Assembly: GCA_947626845.1 (NCBI GenBank)
Contig: CANQTW010000022.1
Location: 1 to 41,561 of the forward strand
Direction of reading: 5' to 3'
Source: an uncultured Oscillospiraceae bacterium
Lineage (GTDB): Bacteria > Bacillota > Clostridia > Oscillospirales > Oscillospiraceae
Length of the DNA: 41,561 nucleotides
Under the pieces are notes generated by a model. That model did no database searches. It was not told the DNA's origin and was given only the letters and a program-made list of their open reading frames with translations. The position numbers were made by a program, and so were the translations under genes. Shown here in pieces: positions 17,252 to 36,105 of the stretch (positions within the stretch are counted from its first letter, which is position 1; each line of letters opens with the position of its first letter).

Positions 17252-17252
<1 letters not shown>
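15774..17252 (-). CDS. gltD: glutamate synthase small (beta) subunit
   Basis: The 492-residue protein transfers electrons from NADPH to the large subunit. The N-terminal region has the cysteine sets for 4Fe-4S binding (CMDCGVPFC, GCPLHN, CPALCEAACTCG). Two Rossmann motifs follow: GSGPAGLAAADQLNRRGH for FAD and VVVGGGDTGNDCVG for NADPH. The C-terminal FAD-binding motif reads IFAAGDVRRGQSLV. The length matches bacterial GltD. Its ATG overlaps the gltB stop by one base (TAATG), so the subunits are made in step. The complex makes two glutamates from glutamine and 2-oxoglutarate and works with the glnA product encoded upstream. Confidence 0.96.
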
Positions 17253-21781
<4,529 letters not shown>

Positions 21782-21878
21782 ATCCCATCACGTCCTTGTT
21801 GTGGGGTAATCGTCGCGGAACACGCTTTTCTTCGGACTTCCGCTGGCCGTCCTCAGGCGCGGTGTTCGCTCCTGCTTG

Positions 21879-22409
21879 TTACATCTCTAAAATCTGCCGC
21901 GCGGTCTCGGCGAGCTTGGCGCCGGTCTCCATGCTCCGTTTCTGGAGGTATCTGTGGGCCTGGGCCTCGGTGAAGCCGCGGGACTCCATCAGAAGCTCCT
22001 TGGCCTTGGCGATGACGTGCTGCTCCTCCTCGCTTCTCTGCGGGATTTGATCGCGGGAGGCGATCTCGTCCAGCTGGATGAGGATATTCACGCTCCCCCG
22101 CAGCTCCGCGGCGGAGATTGGTATTTGCAATTTAAAAATGTCCGGGTCGTTGAGAAGCTCCAGCTGTGACTGCTTGGCCAGAACCAGGAATTTGGCCTGG
22201 CCGCGCAGATCGTGGGCCAGATGCTCCGCCGGCATATCCGCCAGCTTGTGGCCGCAGATGACCACCCCGGAGCCCATGGTTTTGACGGCTCTCAGCACCT
22301 CCGCGCCTGACCGGCACCGGAAGCGCACCGTCACGCCGGATCTCTCCAGCATATCCGCGATCTTGTTGCGGGAATCGTCTTTTTCAAAGGCGACGACTGT
22401 GCGTATCAT
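21879..22409 (-). CDS. ANTAR-domain transcription antiterminator with a degenerate receiver domain
   Basis: The 176-residue protein has an N-terminal receiver-like domain (1 to about 112) and a C-terminal ANTAR domain (about 120-176: RSEEEQHVIAKAKELLMESRGFTE and AHRYLQKRSM). ANTAR proteins bind paired RNA hairpins and prevent termination, often in nitrogen or ethanolamine genes. The expected phosphoacceptor aspartate at the end of strand 3 is missing: the region reads VVICGHKLADMP. Control by phosphorylation is therefore unlikely. The frame is open further upstream into glnA, but GGGGGTGAG before the ATG at 22409 and the domain boundary fix the start. It lies between glnA and gltB on the same strand, so it probably regulates nitrogen genes. 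Confidence 0.92.
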   Translation of the reverse strand: MIRTVVAFEKDDSRNKIADMLERSGVTVRFRCRSGAEVLRAVKTMGSGVVICGHKLADMPAEHLAHDLRGQAKFLVLAKQSQLELLNDPDIFKLQIPISAAELRGSVNILIQLDEIASRDQIPQRSEEEQHVIAKAKELLMESRGFTEAQAHRYLQKRSMETGAKLAETARQILEM

Positions 22410-22437
22410 GGGATTCTCACCCCCAAAATATACCCGT

Positions 22438-22459
22438 GGGCCGCCGTAGGCGGCGGCCC
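22438..22459. repeat. palindromic GTACGGGCCGCCG intergenic repeat, copy A
   Basis: GGGCCGCCG, loop TAGG, CGGCGGCCC. Read on the - strand with its flanks (GTACGGGCC...GGCCCAC) it matches the copy at 39744-39771 on the + strand at all but one position. It lies 29 bp upstream of the ANTAR start and could act as an RNA hairpin there. Confidence 0.8.
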
Positions 22460-22547
22460 GTACAGATTTCAAAGGAAAATCCGTTCCATATCTTATTCCG
22501 TTTCCGCCGCTTGGACCGCCTTCAGCGGCGCGGGCGGTGTGACGGCA

Positions 22548-22587
22548 GGGAAAACGGCACAAAATTTTAATTTTGGGCCGTTTTCCC
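22548..22587 (-). terminator. 40-nt near-perfect hairpin between glnA and the ANTAR gene
   Basis: GGGAAAACGGC (22548-22558) pairs perfectly with GCCGTTTTCCC (22577-22587). The interior CAAAATT/AATTTTG (22560-22566 with 22569-22575) pairs again, leaving one mismatch. A further perfect hairpin, TTGAAAGGCC/GGCCTTTCAA (22604-22628), sits 8 bp after the glnA stop. Neither has a good U tract, so they may be RNA-stability or partial-termination structures that set glnA against downstream expression. Confidence 0.55.
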
Positions 22588-22635
22588 GCACGTCCCCATG
22601 GCATTGAAAGGCCATTCCGGCCTTTCAAGCCAGCT

Positions 22636-23967
22636 TTAATAGGTGACGATGTACTTGTCGATCTCCCAGTCGGAGACGTATGTGCGGTAGGCGTCCCACT
22701 CCTTGCGCTTGCCCTGGATGTACTGCTCCACCACATGCTCGCCCAGCGTCTGGCAGATCAGTTCATCCTTCTCCATCTCGTCAATGGCCTCGCTGAGGTT
22801 TCCGGGCAGGGAGTGGATGCCGTGGGCGTGGCGGGTCTTACGATCCATGGCGAAGATGTTCTCGGTGATCTCCGCCGGAGGCGTCATGCCCTTCTCGATG
22901 CCGTCAAGTCCGGCGGCCAGGCAGCAGGCCAGCTCCAGATAGGGGTTGCAGGAGGGGTCGGGGCAGCGGAGCTCCACACGGGTGGCCTGACCGCGGGCGG
23001 CGGGGATGCGGATCAGCGCGGAGCGGTTGGAGGCGGACCAGGCCAGATAGCAGGGGGCCTCGTAACCGGGCACCAGGCGCTTGTAGGAGTTGACCAAGGG
23101 GTTGGTGATGGCCGCCATGCCGCGCACATGGGCCAGCAGGCCCGCGATGAAGCTGTACGCCTCCTTGGAGAGGCCGCGGGCGTCGTTGGGATCGAAGAAC
23201 ACGTTCTTGCCGTCCTTGAAGAGGGACATGTTGGTGTGCATACCGGAGCCGTTGATGCCGAAGACGGGCTTGGGCATGAAGGTGGCGTGCAGGCCGTTCT
23301 TCTGGGCCACGGTCTTCACCGCCAGCTTGAAGGTCATGATCTTGTCGGCGGCGCTGAGGGCCTCGTCATACTTGAAGTCGATCTCATGCTGGCCGGCGGC
23401 CACCTCATGATGGCTGGCCTCGATCTCAAAACCCATGGCCTCCAGGTTCAGGCAAATCTCGCGCCGGGTGCCCTCACCGTGATCGAGGGGGCCCAGATCG
23501 AAATAGCCAGCCTCGTCGCCTGTCTTGGTGGTGGGACGGCCCTCGTCATCGGTCTCAAAGAGAAAGAACTCGCACTCAGGGCCAACATTGAAGCTGTAGC
23601 CCATATCGGCGGCCCGCTTCAGGGCCTTTTTCAGAACACCGCGGGGGTCGCCCACGAAGGGGGTGCCGTCGGGGTTGTAGACATCGCAGATGAGCCGCGC
23701 CACCTTGCCGTACTGGGGCCGCCAGGGCAGGACGGTGAAGCTGTCCAGATCGGGATAGAGGTACTGGTCGGACTCATGGATACGGGTGAAGCCCTCGATG
23801 GAGCTCCCGTCGATCATGATCTGGTTATTCACCGCCTTCTGGATCTGGCTCTTTGTGATGGCCACGTTCTTGAGCTGACCGAAGATATCCGTAAACTGCA
23901 TACGGATGAACTCGATGTCCTGCTCCTCCACTAAACGGATGATGTCTTCCTTGGTGTACTTACTCAT
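22636..23967 (-). CDS. glnA: glutamine synthetase, type I (alpha)
   Basis: The 443-residue enzyme makes glutamine from glutamate, ammonium and ATP. Its length matches the GSI-alpha class of Firmicutes. Visible signatures are [20 protein letters not shown] (the flexible loop with the arginine that mediates glutamine feedback in GSI-alpha), [23 protein letters not shown] (metal ligands), [12 protein letters not shown], and [20 protein letters not shown] see no adenylylation-type insertion. GAAAGGAGC precedes the ATG. It heads the block glnA, ANTAR, gltB, gltD, amtB-PII and has two promoters with a terminator-like hairpin between them. Confidence 0.97.
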
Positions 23968-24011
23968 GGGAAAGCTCCTTTCGGCTTTATATTGTGATAT
24001 ATGGTGATGGG

Positions 24012-24040
24012 ATTATATCATACATTCACAAAAAGGGCAA
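24012..24040 (-). promoter_or_regulatory. glnA: glnA promoter P2 (downstream, extended -10)
   Basis: On the - strand TTGCCC (24035-24040), a 17-bp spacer and TATAAT (24012-24017) preceded by TGA, an exact extended -10. Its -35 lies inside the 3' arm of the leader terminator, so P2 transcripts escape that terminator. Confidence 0.6.
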
Positions 24041-24072
24041 TGGCTTCCTTGCGGAAAAGCACCATCGCCCTT
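24030..24072 (-). terminator. terminator-like hairpin in the glnA P1 leader
   Basis: On the - strand AAGGGCGATGG pairs with CCATTGCCCTT (one G-U pair), enclosing TTCC/GGAA with a GCAA tetraloop. A five-T run follows at once. It lies between P1 and the glnA start, a position that suits conditional antitermination, possibly by the ANTAR protein encoded just after glnA. I did not find the two-hairpin A1/G4 hexaloop motif of ANTAR targets here. Confidence 0.75.
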
Positions 24073-24081
24073 ACACGCGCT

Positions 24082-24110
24082 ATTATATGACCGCAAATGC
24101 CATATGTCAA
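24082..24110 (-). promoter_or_regulatory. glnA: glnA promoter P1 (consensus)
   Basis: On the - strand TTGACA (24105-24110), a 17-bp spacer and TATAAT (24082-24087), a perfect sigma-A promoter. Transcription should begin near 24075, giving a leader of about 108 nt. Confidence 0.88.
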
Positions 24111-24201
24111 CCGCTAAAATTGCAAATTTCGTCTTTTTGGAGAGTTATACATAGTGGATTTGCAATATAAGCATATTGTTCGTGCAAATTATTCAATAGA
24201 C

Positions 24202-24233
24202 AAAACCGGCGCTCCCGTATCTGGGAACGCCGG
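24202..24233 (-). terminator. terminator between the AT-rich island and glnA
   Basis: On the - strand CCGGCGTTCCC, loop AGATAC, GGGAGCGCCGG (one G-U pair), then TTTT. It insulates glnA P1 from transcription entering from the island. Confidence 0.82.
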
Positions 24234-24307
24234 CGCGATAAAGCGGCTATGTTATTATGGTTACGCAGCGGCGCCGGACCCATCCGTCCCAACAGGGTAC
24301 ATCTTCC

Positions 24308-24375
24308 AAGTATTTTAAAAATCAAAAAGTATGGTCAAAAAGGAAATCTCTTGACCATACTTTTCTGAAATACTT
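24308..24375 (-). terminator. long AT-rich nested hairpin after the CPCC gene
   Basis: AAAAGTATGGTCAA (24325-24338) is perfectly complementary to 24351-24364. The outer AAGTATTTT (24308-24316) pairs with GAAATACTT (24367-24375). It starts 2 bp beyond the CPCC stop on the - strand and probably ends the island transcript before the GC-rich terminator that follows. Confidence 0.7.
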
Positions 24376-24376
24376 G

Positions 24377-24622
24377 CTATTTAACCTGTTCTTCTACAGT
24401 TGGTTGGCGTGTATATTTAATAAGATCTTCACTTACTGCTCCAAATTGAAGATAATTCCGTTTTGCTTCAATTAGCGTCATTCCTCTATTTTCATCACTG
24501 GGTTCATCATCGCTCTTTATAAACACATCATTTTCCCAATAGCAGACTGGGCAGATATATGCAATTGCACAATTAGAGGGGGCAGGCAAGGTATAGTTAC
24601 CACAGCAGGGACACTTATACAT
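24377..24622 (-). CDS. cysteine-rich CPCC family protein
   Basis: The 81-residue protein opens MYKCPCCGNYTL and continues with ICPVCYWENDVF, then NRGMTLIEAKRNYLQFGA. This is the pattern of the Cys_rich_CPCC family (PF14206), a small presumed zinc-binding module of unknown function. It has no signal peptide and is likely cytosolic. AGGAGAGG lies eight bases before the ATG. It begins 18 bp after the stop of the secreted toxin-like gene, on the same strand. That tight pairing suggests an immunity role, which is inference only. Base composition is AT-rich, unlike glnA and gdhA on either side. Confidence 0.8.
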   Translation of the reverse strand: MYKCPCCGNYTLPAPSNCAIAYICPVCYWENDVFIKSDDEPSDENRGMTLIEAKRNYLQFGAVSEDLIKYTRQPTVEEQVK

Positions 24623-24640
24623 TGTAAGAACCTCTCCTTT

Positions 24641-25402
24641 TCATGGCTTTTTCCCCCCAAAAGTATAAATTGTATCAGTACCATCTCCATAGATGATGAA
24701 TCGGTAATTAGTCTTGTGAGTATATTTATGCGCGGGTTCAAATCCAGGCTGTTCTACTTGCGTAGCAACTTTATAATTGTCGATATTATAGAGTGTATCG
24801 TTAAATGTGTCAATAGCCATTCCTAGATATTGCACAATATTTGAGGTCATAACGCCAATGTCGTTGTGATGTTTATCAAAGTGATGATTTAATGAATCTT
24901 GCCGAGAAGAATAATAACGACCTTTCCCCCAATCCATCAAGGCCAGCCGTTCTTCGGAATATTCAAGGCCGGCAATTCTTGTAAATTGTTGTGTTTGGCC
25001 GCCATCTGTAACAATTACATGAATGTAATATGTCATGCTACATTTTGTCATGGGAATATTAAAACCAAATGTTTTTCCAAGAATAGGGGGAACGTAAGCA
25101 GTTTTTGTCTGTGCTATGTTATGATCTGTTGCAGATACAGATACAGATACAGAGTCCAATCCATCAACACCAAGGTTGCCAACCGTTACGTCTATACCAG
25201 TTCCATCGTTTCGAGGATGGCTTTCAATAGAGATAAGATTAGAAGGTTGGGGATCTGGAGTATGATACTCAACTATGGTTGGTGGCAAAAACTCTATTGG
25301 GGCGTAATTGCCTGATGTTATATAATTTTCTGTTGCAAAGGTAGGGGCAGAAATTGTAAATACCAACACTAAAGAAAGAATAAGGAATAAAAATTTTTTC
25401 AT
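24641..25402 (-). CDS. secreted protein with a possible BECR-fold RNase toxin-like C-terminus
   Basis: The 253-residue precursor has a clear signal peptide (MKKFLFLILSLVLVF, cleavage after about 23 at TFA-TEN). The middle (about 60-160) is beta-rich with Ser/Val repeats. The C-terminal 90 residues contain SLNHHFDKHHNDIG, then IVQYLGMAIDTF, later YRFIIYGDGTDTIYTF. This spacing of HFxKH, an alpha helix and an R-x-I...DGT-x-x-x-TF ending resembles the BECR-type RNase toxin domains at the ends of polymorphic toxins. The match is by eye. The ATG at 25402 follows GGAGG, and the signal peptide supports it over an in-frame ATG 11 codons upstream. It is paired with the CPCC gene. Confidence 0.7.
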   Translation of the reverse strand: MKKFLFLILSLVLVFTISAPTFATENYITSGNYAPIEFLPPTIVEYHTPDPQPSNLISIESHPRNDGTGIDVTVGNLGVDGLDSVSVSVSATDHNIAQTKTAYVPPILGKTFGFNIPMTKCSMTYYIHVIVTDGGQTQQFTRIAGLEYSEERLALMDWGKGRYYSSRQDSLNHHFDKHHNDIGVMTSNIVQYLGMAIDTFNDTLYNIDNYKVATQVEQPGFEPAHKYTHKTNYRFIIYGDGTDTIYTFGGKKP

Positions 25403-25619
25403 AATATGGGCCTCCGTAGATTTTGAGTCGAACAAATTAGCACTGGACTTTTTTTAAAAACACTCTTTTTTGCTTTTTTGTGCAATTGAAAAATTCCGCA
25501 AGCCTTCTTACATACATTCCCAGTAATACTTAAAATATGTCTCCTATCACCCCTCCAATTCCGCACTGGATTCGCTTATTCGCGCAATTTTTGTATCCCA
25601 TTACCGTTTCCGCGAACAT

Positions 25620-26036
25620 TCAGTAGTTGATATACCCGCTCACACTGACAGGGAAAGAGGAGTTATTAACCACGGCGAAATAATATGTTCCCCTTACGCC
25701 TATGGCAAATGTATAGTCGAGAATGCCGCCTTTGGCAGAAATTCCATAAAAGAGACCGTCTGAGGCGACTAACCCATACTTTACGTTTGCGGTGTTCGGA
25801 GAATAGGATGCTTTGACAGTAAATGTTTCTCCTACTTCAAAAGAAAAGCCAGAGTCCACTATTACAGTGGTGTTTGCCGGAATAGATACATGAAATTGTT
25901 TTGAAGAGTTCGTAGATTCAATATTCAAACTGTCATTTTTTGCCGAAAAACTATCTGCCAAAGTTATACCCGGTTCTAAAAGAAACAATAAAAAAGTGAA
26001 CACAAGTATAGTAAGAACTGTTCTTTTGATTTTCAT
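25620..26036 (-). CDS. small secreted protein, unknown function
   Basis: The 138-residue precursor has an N-terminal KIKR, a hydrophobic core to about residue 20 and a likely cleavage near LADS at 27-29. The mature part is Ser/Asn/Val rich and beta-like (FHVSIPANTTVIVDSGFSFE, GTYYFAVVNNSSFPVSV). This suggests a compact beta-sandwich of pre-peptidase C-terminal or Ig-like character, but I recognise no family. The start ATG at 26036 follows AGGAG. The upstream in-frame ATG at 26057 would place the Shine-Dalgarno inside the gene. It starts 13 bp after the stop of the membrane-anchored Xre regulator, so the two form an operon. It is AT-rich like the toxin-like gene. Confidence 0.72.
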   Translation of the reverse strand: MKIKRTVLTILVFTFLLFLLEPGITLADSFSAKNDSLNIESTNSSKQFHVSIPANTTVIVDSGFSFEVGETFTVKASYSPNTANVKYGLVASDGLFYGISAKGGILDYTFAIGVRGTYYFAVVNNSSFPVSVSGYINY

Positions 26037-26049
26037 TTTTTTCGTTCTC

Positions 26050-26553
26050 CTATTCAATATCTTCAGTTATGATGAATATGACTTCATCAATCTCGACTTC
26101 TTCACCCACGATAGCCTTCCCGTCTTCACCGATTACCATGCCAGTTCCGTCAATGTCCTTGAGCGAGCCAGGGGCCTCCCGTGACGGCGTGGACGGACGA
26201 AACAGGAGGAGAACTGCCATTAGAACGGCGATGGCAAGCGCGGCGGAGGAAAGGGCGAGGGCCCAGAGTACGCCGGGCGAGCGGGCGGGCGCGGCGGCGG
26301 TCTCCTCAGCCACGGGTTCCGGCTCTGTCTCCGGCGGCGGAGCGGGCTGCTCCGGCCTCTCCCCGTCGCACACCAGATAATCAAGAGACACGTTGTACAG
26401 GTCTCTTAAGCACCTTAAATTCTCCAGGCTCGGCGCGGCCTCGCCCGTCTCCCATCTTGAGACGGCCTGGCGCGAGACGTTCAACTCCTCGGCCAGCTCG
26501 ACCTGGGAAAGACCTTTCTCCCTTCGGAGCGCGATCAGCTTTTCCGATAACAT
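26050..26553 (-). CDS. membrane-anchored Xre-family regulator
   Basis: The 167-residue protein begins with an Xre helix-turn-helix (about 6-60: LIALRREKGLSQVELAEELN, SRQAVSRWETGEAAPSLENL). A Pro/Glu-rich linker covers 67-92. One transmembrane helix covers 95-118, and an acidic external tail follows to 167 (EIDEVIFIITEDIE). DNA binding inside with a sensor tail outside is the inferred role. The ATG at 26553 follows AAAGGGG; the frame stays open upstream, but that part overlaps the promoter. A promoter and an inverted repeat lie just upstream. The next gene (13 bp on) encodes a secreted protein. Confidence 0.85.
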   Translation of the reverse strand: MLSEKLIALRREKGLSQVELAEELNVSRQAVSRWETGEAAPSLENLRCLRDLYNVSLDYLVCDGERPEQPAPPPETEPEPVAEETAAAPARSPGVLWALALSSAALAIAVLMAVLLLFRPSTPSREAPGSLKDIDGTGMVIGEDGKAIVGEEVEIDEVIFIITEDIE

Positions 26554-26574
26554 CGCTTTATCCCCTTTTATGTC

Positions 26575-26641
26575 ATTATATACCATCTTCCGAAAGGAAG
26601 CAACCGCACCCACTTTACAGTCTGTCAATTTTCGGTTGCTT
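26575..26641 (-). promoter_or_regulatory. promoter and possible operator of the Xre gene
   Basis: On the - strand TTGCTT (26598-26603), a 17-bp spacer and TATAAT (26575-26580). A nine-base perfect inverted repeat, AAGCAACCG at 26598-26606 and CGGTTGCTT at 26633-26641, overlaps the -35. It is the obvious candidate for autoregulatory binding by the Xre protein. Confidence 0.6.
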
Positions 26642-26671
26642 TCCTGGAATGACGCGGTTTTTTGCGTAAAT

Positions 26672-26698
26672 GAAAAAGAGGGGGGACATGCCCCCCTC
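26672..26698 (-). terminator. terminator after gdhA
   Basis: On the - strand GAGGGGGG, five-base loop, CCCCCCTC, then TTTTT. It lies 14 bp after the gdhA stop. Confidence 0.88.
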
Positions 26699-26712
26699 AA
26701 ATATAAGAATTA

Positions 26713-28053
<1,341 letters not shown>

Positions 28054-33091: not shown

Positions 33092-33109
33092 TCTAAAGGA
33101 GGTTTTCCC

Positions 33110-35671
33110 GTGTCCAAGACGGTGATCGGAATACTGGCCCACGTGGACGCGGGGAAAACCACGCTGTCCGAGGCGCTCCTGTACTGCGCCGGGGATATAC
33201 GCCGGCTTGGCAGGGTGGATCACGGCGACGCCTTCCTCGATACCTTCGCCCTGGAGCGTCAGCGCGGCATCACCATCTTTTCCAAGGAGGCGCGGCTGAG
33301 CCTGGGGAGCAAGTCCGCCACGCTGTTGGACACGCCGGGGCATGTGGATTTCTCCGCGGAGACGGAGCGCACCCTGGACGTCCTGGACTGCGCCATCCTT
33401 GTGATCTCCGCCCCGGAGGGGGTGCAGAGCCACACGCGGACGCTGTGGAAGCTCCTGCGGGACAGGGACATCCCCACCCTGCTGTTCATCAACAAGATGG
33501 ATCTGCCCGGCGCGGACCGGGCCGGCATCCTGGCGGAGCTGACCCAGCGCCTGGGGGACGGCTTTTTCATCCCCGGTCAGGCCGATTCCGAGGCGCTGGC
33601 GCTGTGCGACGAGGCCCTTTTGGAGGAGCATCTGGAGCGGGGCGAGCTATCAGAAGCCGCTCTTGAAGGGGCCTTCCGGCGGGGCCGCGTCTACCCCTGC
33701 TATTTCGGCGCGGCGCTGAAATTAGAGGGCGTGGAGGCGTTTTTGGCGGGCCTTGAGCGCTTCGCCCCCGCCAGCCCCGCGAAAGCCGGTTTCGCCGCGC
33801 GGGTCTTTAAGATCTCCCGCGACGAGGACGGCAAGCGCCTGACGCACATGAAGATCACCGGCGGGACCTTGCGCGTACGGGACACGGTGACGGGGCCGGA
33901 CTGGGAGGAGAAGGTCACCCAGCTTCGCTTTTACTCCGGGGCCAAATACACCGCCGCCGACGAGGCGGAGCCGGGGGACGTGGTGGCCGTCACGGGGCTG
34001 TCCGCCACCTTCGCCGGACAGGGCCTGGGCGCGGAGGGGGATGGTCGGGCGCCGGCGCTGGAGCCCGTGCTGAGCTACGCCGTCTACCTCCCCGCGGGGT
34101 GCGATCTCCACAAGACCGTGGCCCAGCTGCGCCAGCTGGAGGAGGAGAACCCGGAGCTGAAGCTTGTCTGGGAGCCCCGCGCCCAGTCCCTTCACGCCCA
34201 GATCATGGGCCAGGTACAGCTTGAGGTCATCCGCCAGCTGGTGCGGGACCGTTACGGCTTCGACATCTCCTTCGGGCCTGGGAGCATCATCTACCGGGAG
34301 ACCATCGCCGGCAAAGTGGAGGGCGTGGGCCACTACGAGCCCCTGCGCCATTACGCCGAGGTGCATCTCCTGCTGGAGCCGGGGGAGCGGGGCAGCGGCG
34401 TCGAGATCGGCTCCGCCGTCTCCGAGGACGCCCTGGCCGGCAGCTGGCAGCGGCTGATCCTCACCCACCTCCACGAAAAACAACACCTGGGCGTCCTGAC
34501 CGGCTCGCCCATCACGGATATGAAGATCACCCTCTCCGCCGGACGGGCGCACATCAAGCACACCGAGGGCGGGGACTTTCGGGAAGCCACCTACCGGGCC
34601 GTCCGGCAGGGGCTTATGAGCGCCAAAAGCGTGCTCTTGGAGCCCTGGTACGACTTCCGCATGGAGCTTCCCCAGACCAACGTGGGCCGCGCCATGACGG
34701 ACCTTCAGCGCATGGGTGCCCGGTTCGAGCAGTCCGGGGACGAGGGCGGCATGGCCGTCCTGACAGGCTCAGGCCCCGTGGCGAAGCTGCGGGAATACCC
34801 CGCCGAGGCGGCGGCGTACACCAGGGGCCAGGGGCGCGTCAGCTTCGTCTTTCACGGCTATGAGCCCTGCGCCGAGCAGGACGCGGTGGTGGAGGCCATC
34901 GGCTACGACCCCCTGGCGGACATGGAGAACTCTCCCCACAGCGTCTTCTGCTCCCACGGCGCGGGGGTGCTGGTGCCCTGGAACGAGGTTCCGGCGCGGA
35001 TGCACCTGCCCAGCACCCTGGCCCCGCCCAAAGCCCCCGATCCCGTCCGGGAGGCGGCGGCCCGGTATGTGAAGCTGGTGGCCTCGGACAAGGAGCTGAT
35101 GGACATCTTTCAGCGCACCTACGGGCGGATAGACCGGGGCGAGGAGGCCCTCCGTCCCGCCCCCAGGGAGCCCCGACGGGAACCCTCCCCCCAAAAAAGA
35201 AAGCCCCTCCCCCAGAAGGACGGGCTGGAATTTGTGCTGGTGGACGGCTACAACATCATCTTCGCCTGGGACGATCTGAAAAAGCTGGCCGCCCAGAGCC
35301 TTGACGCGGCCAGGGAGCGCCTCATCGAGCGCCTACGCAATTACCAGGGCTTCCGCCAGTGCGCCGTCATCGTGGTGTTCGACGCCTACAAGGTGAAAAA
35401 CAACCCCGGCAAGGTGGATCACCTGGGCGGGGTCAGCGTCGTCTACACCAAAGAGGCCGAGACGGCGGACATGTACATCGAGCGCGCCACCTACGACCTC
35501 TCCAAACGTCATCACGTGCGCGTAGCCACCTCCGACGGTATGGAGCAGATGATCATTTTGGGCAACGGCGCGTTGCGCGTCCCCGCCTCCGCCTTCGAGG
35601 CGGAGGTCAAAGAGGTGGAGCGCGCCATCAGCGACTATCTGCGCGACTATAATCGGGGCATGGAGCAGTGA
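33110..35671 (+). CDS. Tet(M)/EF-G-like translational GTPase fused to a C-terminal Rae1/YacP-type NYN nuclease
   Basis: The 853-residue protein has the full EF-G/Tet(M) plan. The G domain motifs are AHVDAGKTT (10-18), RGITI (52-56), DTPGH (74-78) and NKMD (128-131). Domain II lies at about 230-300, and domains III, IV and V run to about 665, ending in SPHSVFCSHGAG and WNEVPARM. A basic, Pro-rich linker (about 670-705) leads to an NYN/YacP domain at 706-850. Its acidic residues are Asp712 in VDGYN, Asp758 in VVFDAY, Asp787 in EAETAD and Asp809 in TSDGMEQ. B. subtilis YacP is Rae1, a nuclease that cuts mRNA in the ribosomal A site, the same site that Tet(M)-type GTPases enter. The start is GTG behind AAAGGAGG. 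Ribosome-directed mRNA cleavage is inferred. Confidence 0.9.
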   Translation: MSKTVIGILAHVDAGKTTLSEALLYCAGDIRRLGRVDHGDAFLDTFALERQRGITIFSKEARLSLGSKSATLLDTPGHVDFSAETERTLDVLDCAILVISAPEGVQSHTRTLWKLLRDRDIPTLLFINKMDLPGADRAGILAELTQRLGDGFFIPGQADSEALALCDEALLEEHLERGELSEAALEGAFRRGRVYPCYFGAALKLEGVEAFLAGLERFAPASPAKAGFAARVFKISRDEDGKRLTHMKITGGTLRVRDTVTGPDWEEKVTQLRFYSGAKYTAADEAEPGDVVAVTGLSATFAGQGLGAEGDGRAPALEPVLSYAVYLPAGCDLHKTVAQLRQLEEENPELKLVWEPRAQSLHAQIMGQVQLEVIRQLVRDRYGFDISFGPGSIIYRETIAGKVEGVGHYEPLRHYAEVHLLLEPGERGSGVEIGSAVSEDALAGSWQRLILTHLHEKQHLGVLTGSPITDMKITLSAGRAHIKHTEGGDFREATYRAVRQGLMSAKSVLLEPWYDFRMELPQTNVGRAMTDLQRMGARFEQSGDEGGMAVLTGSGPVAKLREYPAEAAAYTRGQGRVSFVFHGYEPCAEQDAVVEAIGYDPLADMENSPHSVFCSHGAGVLVPWNEVPARMHLPSTLAPPKAPDPVREAAARYVKLVASDKELMDIFQRTYGRIDRGEEALRPAPREPRREPSPQKRKPLPQKDGLEFVLVDGYNIIFAWDDLKKLAAQSLDAARERLIERLRNYQGFRQCAVIVVFDAYKVKNNPGKVDHLGGVSVVYTKEAETADMYIERATYDLSKRHHVRVATSDGMEQMIILGNGALRVPASAFEAEVKEVERAISDYLRDYNRGMEQ

Positions 35672-35817: not shown

Positions 35818-36105
35818 TTACACCTCTTCCGTTGTTTTCCGCATGGAGGCGAGGCCCTCGGTGTACTCGTCCTCGGCGTGGACGATCAGCTTGGCGAAGG
35901 GGAGAAAATACTCCCCGCACTCCGTCAGCTCCACCCGCCTGGTGGAGCGGTTGAAGAGCGTTACGCCCAGCTCCTCCTCCAGCTCCTTGATGTGCCGCGA
36001 CAGCGTCGGCTGGGAGAGGAAAAGCCGTTCAGAGGCTGAATTAAAATTTTTAAGCTCTGACAAAGTCAGAAACTCCCGCATACTTTGAATTTTCAAGTGG
36101 CCCAT
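35818..36105 (-). CDS. truncated LysR-type regulator, DNA-binding domain only
   Basis: The 95-residue product covers only the LysR winged helix-turn-helix (MREFLTLSELKNFNSASERL, SQPTLSRHIKELEEELGVTL, RSTRRVELTECG) plus the start of the linker helix. It then stops. Full LysR proteins have about 300 residues, so the effector domain is missing, and none of its sequence is visible in the 110 bp downstream. It is either a remnant or a small stand-alone repressor. The ATG at 36105 has its Shine-Dalgarno directly adjacent. The in-frame TTG at 36096, nine bases after AAAGGG, is a likely alternative start. Confidence 0.65.
   Translation of the reverse strand: MGHLKIQSMREFLTLSELKNFNSASERLFLSQPTLSRHIKELEEELGVTLFNRSTRRVELTECGEYFLPFAKLIVHAEDEYTEGLASMRKTTEEV

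Follow-up and report, generated by a model that had tools for sequence, protein, structure and literature searches.

The DNA analysed here, called the window throughout, comprises positions 1 to 41,561 (41,561 nucleotides) of contig CANQTW010000022.1 from an uncultured Oscillospiraceae bacterium (GenBank assembly GCA_947626845.1). Two polysaccharide deacetylase genes are followed by a single intact open reading frame (ORF) at 33110..35671 on the forward strand, which begins with GTG and encodes a protein of 853 amino acids (aa) joining a translational GTPase to a nuclease domain of the NYN_YacP family. A Shine-Dalgarno-like AAAGGAGG was read from the sequence at 33095..33102 (+), 7 nt upstream of the GTG. 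A preliminary description of this gene, made from the letters alone, took it for a fusion of an EF-G/Tet-type GTPase with intact motifs to an NYN domain; the ORF, the Pfam matches and the conservation of the motifs bear this out. In many clostridial genomes the fusion seems to take the place of free Rae1 (YacP), the ribosome-dependent mRNA endonuclease.

A scan of named genomes revealed 295 stretches that encode a relative. Of the best 80 of these 295, 79 could be aligned to the window protein in a single long frame and the other (L050) is frame-broken, which argues that the fusion is a product neither of chance nor of misassembly. By their titles, the records carrying it include Faecalibacterium, Agathobaculum, Anaerotruncus, Caproicibacter, Intestinimonas and many uncultured Oscillospiraceae. 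The residue counts below come from an alignment of 125 fusions that includes the window; L050 and L137 (both with too short a match), L178 (contig-cut) and L135 and L146, both of which are the window itself, were left out. A Tet/EF-G-like GTPase joined to a YacP-like NYN RNase was reported from ten clostridial species by Atkinson in 2015 (BMC Genomics; PMC4342817). These proteins, from Clostridiales, have the same architecture, and the window fusion falls within the group as defined there.

The NYN_YacP domain (residues 709-845; 35234..35644, +) scores 162.5 bits in Pfam against a cut-off of 24.6 (E-value 1e-47) and matches the structure of Bacillus subtilis YacP/Rae1 (5mq9) with an E-value of 1.1e-25, so that the assignment of the C-terminus to YacP/NYN stands. 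Residues D712, N715 and D758 are invariant in 125/125 fusions, and D787, S808 and D809 are found in 124/124 of the rows that reach that far; the four acidic residues singled out in the preliminary description (D712, D758, D787 and D809) are therefore kept in the homologues as well. Its statement that the domain is complete needs to be qualified, since profile positions 1-139 of 166 are covered and a C-terminal motif has been lost. This motif, L[EDQ]xxR[RKL], occurs in 23/23 stand-alone clostridial YacP proteins, from inspection of whose tails the pattern was drawn, and in 1/125 fusions; the window protein is without it. Eighty-four of the 125 fusions have no more than 33 residues after the GALR motif (two of these, L054 and L188, are cut at the locus end), and 41 have more than 33, some with a degenerate form of the C-terminal motif. 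Rae1 of B. subtilis has FEKLRR at this position, ending at R166, and R166P is among the suppressor mutations that PMC6613710 attributes to loss of Rae1 function. Judged by its sequence, the fused nuclease has kept its active-site residues and lost an end that seems to matter in B. subtilis; from the loss of the motif to which R166 belongs we infer that ribosome docking passed to the GTPase. Residue 760, two positions after D758, is Tyr in 125/125 fusions, whereas in stand-alone YacP it is His in 19/23 and Tyr in 4/23.

The fusion is widespread across the Clostridia. Among 291 genomes of the class, NYN_YacP is matched in 189 and the GTPase subfamily in 122 (E-value 1e-60), the latter being classed as 104 with the fusion, 17 with an unfused GTPase and one undetermined. 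Most of the 104 were classed by a frame of at least 840 aa, and those with short, cut or broken frames (G051, G070, G081, G139, G215, G221 and G224) by an NYN match in the same genome; a check of G224 showed the two halves of its fusion on two contigs, each truncated by the contig end. All 104 have an NYN match. A second is present in at most three (G136, G201 and G242); these may be free YacP proteins, and they were counted against the fusion. Elsewhere NYN is matched in 84/185 genomes, two contig-cut cases (G131 and G180) having been set aside from the 291-genome comparison. A frame of 168-216 aa was seen in 55 of the 84; the 84 include 29 without a listed frame length, among them G248, which is below the family cut-off. 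With relatedness ignored, the comparison between a second NYN in fusion genomes and any NYN in the others gives a Fisher p of 1.3e-16. One genome (G133) carries two fusions, and in the window's own genome, which is 90.9% complete, the fusion is the sole NYN_YacP match.

Within the family of the window the two halves are present or absent together. Of its 81 genomes, 50 have NYN, 50 have the GTPase, 49 have both and 30 have neither; the GTPase occurs alone in one (G726, a 665-aa frame) and NYN alone in one (G699, whose frame is cut by the contig start). A sample of the phylum revealed the GTPase in 29/398 genomes, with frames of more than 850 aa in 23 and of 651-676 aa in 6. Among the 17 class genomes with an unfused GTPase, 7 have no YacP, and a linkage between unfused GTPase and YacP was not convincing (YacP in 10/17, against 75/169 of the genomes without the GTPase). 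Canonical Tet proteins exceed their cut-off in 16/291 genomes, of which 5/104 have the fusion and 11/187 do not; being about equally frequent with and without it, they are neither excluded nor replaced by the fusion.

A tree of the GTPase was built from 60 rows by a quick search, with the SH-like approximate likelihood ratio test (SH-aLRT) as the only support measure. The 38 fused rows, a diverse selection from the 125, group as a single clade (SH-aLRT 92), and 17 unfused rows from 16 genomes form its sister (SH-aLRT 84); L177 and the outgroups are on long branches, and many rows are of uneven composition. Together the 55 fused and unfused rows make one clade apart from three Tet/Otr rows (SH-aLRT 98 and 99). 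By sequence, then, the GTPase half and its unfused sisters are a clade of their own, distinct from the Tet proteins, and, because the fused GTPases form one clade, a single fusion event is the simplest reading. The tree of the NYN domain is noisier and does not strictly unite the fused rows: a fused row (L177) and a stand-alone one (L017) cross over. The approximately unbiased test does not reject one clade for all fused rows (p-AU 0.53). In genome G243 the GTPase is unfused and YacP stands alone (L017 and L172). The NYN of this YacP groups with the fused NYN domains, which would make it either the product of a fission or related to the donor of the fusion's nuclease. Two fusions, L176 and L177 (genomes G001 and G232), are divergent and on long branches, with the tips KHTEPPDF and RHTEGGDF, respectively.

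The GTPase half has the domain order and fold of EF-G. Its G domain (residues 5-220; 33122..33769, +) is matched above cut-off by Pfam GTP_EFTU (5-220) and holds D13, K16 and T17, each kept in 124/125 fusions with one gap, and D74, H78 and N128, kept in 125/125. Domains II to V (residues 228-590; 33791..34879, +) are matched by EF-G_D2 (228-304), EFG_IV (392-506) and EFG_C (508-590), all above cut-off, and by EFG_III (318-389) slightly below it, at 23.3 bits against 27; fold matches to EF-G structures cover the same part. In the preliminary description the EF-G plan spanned the N-terminal 665 residues: the five domains are there, at 5-590, but the part that resembles EF-G stops near residue 590.

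Conservation across the fusion protein is highest in domain IV, whose mean identity is 0.77. The alignment places its tip loop I, GHYEPLRHYAEV, at residues 404-420 (34319..34369, +) and its tip loop III, AHIKHTEGGDFR, at residues 476-494 (34535..34591, +), where Tet(O) has YYSPVSTPADFR. The loop I pattern GHxEPLRHYAEV is found in 120/125 fused and 17/17 unfused proteins, and the loop III pattern H[TS]xGGDF in 124/125 and 17/17 (AHIKHTEGGDF in the window); two plasmid relatives that were left out of the tree (L201 and L202) have the similar tips HTVGGDF and HTHGGDF. The Tet(O) loops, NPFWASVGL (I) and YYSPVSTPADF (III), are both replaced, and loop III of the Otr(A)-like row is likewise unlike that of Tet(M). 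Loop III of domain IV has a functional role in Tet proteins (PMC4342817). An EF-G of the same genome has the loops QSGGxGQYGHV and FHEVDSSEMAF, unlike the fusion tip.

Tet(O) is the best solved-structure match by sequence (E-value 3e-69), and Tet(M) and Tet(O) share the five-domain EF-G-like plan with about 30% identity over residues 6-586. Nevertheless, the label "Tet(M)-type" of the preliminary description is inaccurate in detail. The curated Tet models give 400 of 775 bits (NF012153) and 271 of 1100 bits (NF033148), the tip loops are other than those of Tet(M)/Tet(O), the fusion has an extra C-terminal extension, and the clade is separate; a control protein resembling Otr(A) likewise misses the Tet and Otr(A) cut-offs, but by a far smaller margin (684 of 775 and 737 of 900). 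Another fusion, and with it three unfused relatives, scores similarly far below the curated cut-offs. We accordingly rejected membership of the tetracycline ribosomal protection proteins on cut-offs, tip loops and tree. A plain EF-G paralogue was rejected on the curated EF-G model (TIGR00484, 255.5 of 659.4 bits) and the tip; the window's genome has separate EF-G-like genes.

Beyond domain V lies an extension that is confined to this subfamily (residues 591-640; 34880..35029, +), with C614, H616 and H632, and with C587 just before it. C587 is present in 125/125 fusions, C614 in 123/125 and H632 in 121/125, and all three in 17/17 of the unfused sister GTPases; H616 is present in 113/125 fusions, with Lys instead in 12/17 unfused proteins. 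In the three Tet/Otr rows C587 is absent and positions 614, 616 and 632 are gapped. Together C587, C614, H616 and H632 (34868-35005) suggest a possible metal or redox site. The unfused sisters, of about 650 aa and from other Clostridia, have the same type of tip but neither the linker helix nor the NYN domain. This predicted helix (residues 645-671; 35042..35122, +), of low confidence in its second half, has the pattern ELxxIFERTYG in many fusions, and matches to the unfused GTPases end before it. There follows a low-confidence, unconserved and mostly basic linker (about residues 673-707; 35126..35230, +), which in the 125 fusions is 27-57 aa long (median 33) with a net charge of -1 to +10 (median +5). 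An AlphaFold model built on a 55-row alignment has a mean predicted local distance difference test (pLDDT) score of 82.5 and a predicted template modelling (pTM) score of 0.62, and its best Foldseek matches are EF-G and related structures (E-value about 1e-50). Residues 655-705 have a pLDDT below 50, corresponding to a linker at about 655-705, and the model leaves the placement of the NYN domain relative to the GTPase undefined. Such a linker would let the nuclease reach far.

Across the 98 loci compared, no convincing shared neighbour of the fusion and no conserved tie to a translation gene was found. The largest neighbour cluster (34 loci, 54 ORFs) was discarded: in the 14 ORFs inspected it consists of opposite-strand frames that overlap the end of the fusion, and hence of shadow frames. 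In B. subtilis rae1 lies in the yacO/rae1 operon and adjoins rlmB (PMC6613710). The sole rlmB match above cut-off in the window's genome is on contig C13, and the fusion is on C22, so that the two are not adjacent. Downstream of the fusion, a 95-aa ORF on the reverse strand (35818-36105) consists of only a LysR-type helix-turn-helix. Nine relatives (L032-L035, L037, L039, L041, L048 and L050) have, close to the fusion, frames of 97-108 aa that begin with the same sequence, so this may be a real protein and not a remnant. Glutamate synthase, glutamine synthetase and glutamate dehydrogenase genes near one another at 17252-28053 form an ordinary nitrogen-assimilation cluster.

The fusion also occurs on two fecal records titled "Bacteriophage sp." (L199, 12001-14535, and MT835563.1, 5424-8012; MT835514 is marked UNVERIFIED). 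Six of ten neighbouring ORFs on L199 match PHROGs at an E-value of 1e-10 (helicase, protease, cation efflux and three of unknown function), and no named phage structural family was matched among the ten at this threshold. The record is therefore probably bacterial DNA, and a mobile or phage origin was set aside. A plasmid of Agathobacter rectalis (L209, 871-3672) carries a 933-aa fusion with NYN_YacP at 795-925; it is annotated as a TetM/TetW/TetO/TetS family tetracycline resistance protein, and a CopG/BrnT antitoxin-toxin pair adjoins it.

We propose, as the likeliest reading though one that is evenly balanced, that the fusion is the form that Rae1 takes in many Clostridia, docked on the ribosome by its GTPase. 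The proposal draws on the match to Rae1/YacP, the retained catalytic residues and the single fused GTPase clade; on the near absence of any other NYN domain from fusion genomes and the presence or absence of the two halves together; and on domain IV being the best conserved part and the C-terminal YacP motif being lost. In its GTP form the GTPase would occupy the factor-binding site of those ribosomes whose A site is free or abnormal, and its distinctive domain IV tip would probe that A site. Once GTP is hydrolysed or domain IV withdrawn, the tethered nuclease would cut the mRNA in the A site or close to it, with docking and timing, which free Rae1 manages alone, supplied by the GTPase. Domain IV of such GTPases and Rae1 probably use the same space. 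Since domain IV and a Rae1-like domain cannot share one A site, these steps would be sequential, or the cut would fall elsewhere on the mRNA. That GTP hydrolysis might open the A site for cleavage there, as the preliminary description had it, is plausible. More tentative, and in our judgement rather doubtful, is the fuller picture of a GTP-driven mRNA endonuclease whose A-site-reading GTPase inspects or clears the A site and then hands over to the nuclease, a covalent two-step form of stalled-ribosome mRNA decay that would replace free Rae1 across many Clostridia, common gut genera included.

Several points weigh against a GTPase-docked Rae1. That the fusion binds ribosomes, acts as a GTPase and cleaves RNA is what we infer from its sequence, and the order of the domain IV and nuclease events is guesswork. 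The preliminary description knew of no experimental account, and we too found no experimental study of the fusion in the open-access literature searched; the architecture has been in print since 2015. The 30/81 family genomes with neither half imply that the fusion is dispensable there, perhaps in part an effect of genome incompleteness, and the 7/17 unfused sisters without YacP imply that the GTPase can serve some purpose by itself. The fixed Tyr at 760, as opposed to the mostly His of free YacP, suggests that specificity may differ. To these are added the crossing rows of the NYN tree and the lack of a convincing neighbour.

The loss of the YacP C-terminal motif and the Tyr at 760 could also indicate that the substrate has changed. 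The fusion would then be a GTPase-gated enzyme of rRNA or tRNA processing, or of ribosome quality control, with the GTPase recognising ribosomes or their subunits. Related GTPases act in ribosome assembly. For the NYN domain, Atkinson 2015 cites an older prediction of a role in rRNA and tRNA maturation. Rae1, the closest characterised NYN protein, nevertheless destabilises mRNA in a translation-dependent manner (PMC6613710 / PMC10100781), and absence from 30/81 family genomes argues against an essential processing step; we think a structural RNA target unlikely, if still deserving of attention. The loss of the motif also fits docking having passed to a GTPase that is a mere anchor, holding the nuclease near ribosomes to cut nearby mRNA without remodelling of the A site, and the long, low-confidence linker with its positive median charge would suit this. 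The near invariance of the GTPase motifs and domain IV tip goes beyond the needs of a passive anchor, however, and makes this explanation distinctly unlikely.

A role in antibiotic resistance, as a Tet(M)-like protector of the ribosome joined to an RNase, was offered as a guess in Atkinson 2015 (PMC4342817), and the Tet(O) match and the annotation of the 933-aa Agathobacter fusion point the same way. We regard it as improbable: the curated Tet scores are far too low (the Otr(A)-like control misses less widely), the Tet(M)/Tet(O) tip loop has been exchanged for another conserved loop, the clade is separate from the Tet/Otr rows, and the fusion, in 104/291 genomes against 16/291 for canonical Tet proteins, does not replace the latter. 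The coupling of an RNase to a sensor of ribosomes would also suit an abortive or anti-phage nuclease triggered by attack on ribosomes. This we consider very improbable, as neither the fusion nor 8 other window proteins matched PADLOC at an E-value of 1e-5, and the loci of 98 relatives had no convincing common neighbour.

Compared with the free, small Rae1 of B. subtilis (PDB 5mq8 and 5mq9), the fusion has the NYN domain and catalytic aspartates in common, and differs in lacking the terminal FEKLRR motif, in having Tyr for His two residues after D758, and in its added GTPase. The fusions of Atkinson 2015 were filed under Tet and came from ten species, whereas here they form a clade apart from Tet, are far more widely distributed and appear to replace free YacP. 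New within the literature searched are this apparent replacement, the standing of the GTPase as a clade apart, the co-occurrence of the two halves, which are present or missing together, and the loss of the YacP tail. In the public record at least one clear fusion bears a tetracycline resistance label, an annotation that the proposed reading, if right, would correct. We know of no characterised system that couples ribosomal GTP hydrolysis to mRNA cleavage in one protein. If the fusion acts as proposed, bacteria would possess a single protein that links the cleavage of mRNA to the hydrolysis of GTP on the ribosome, with implications for the way in which Rae1-type enzymes locate their ribosomes.

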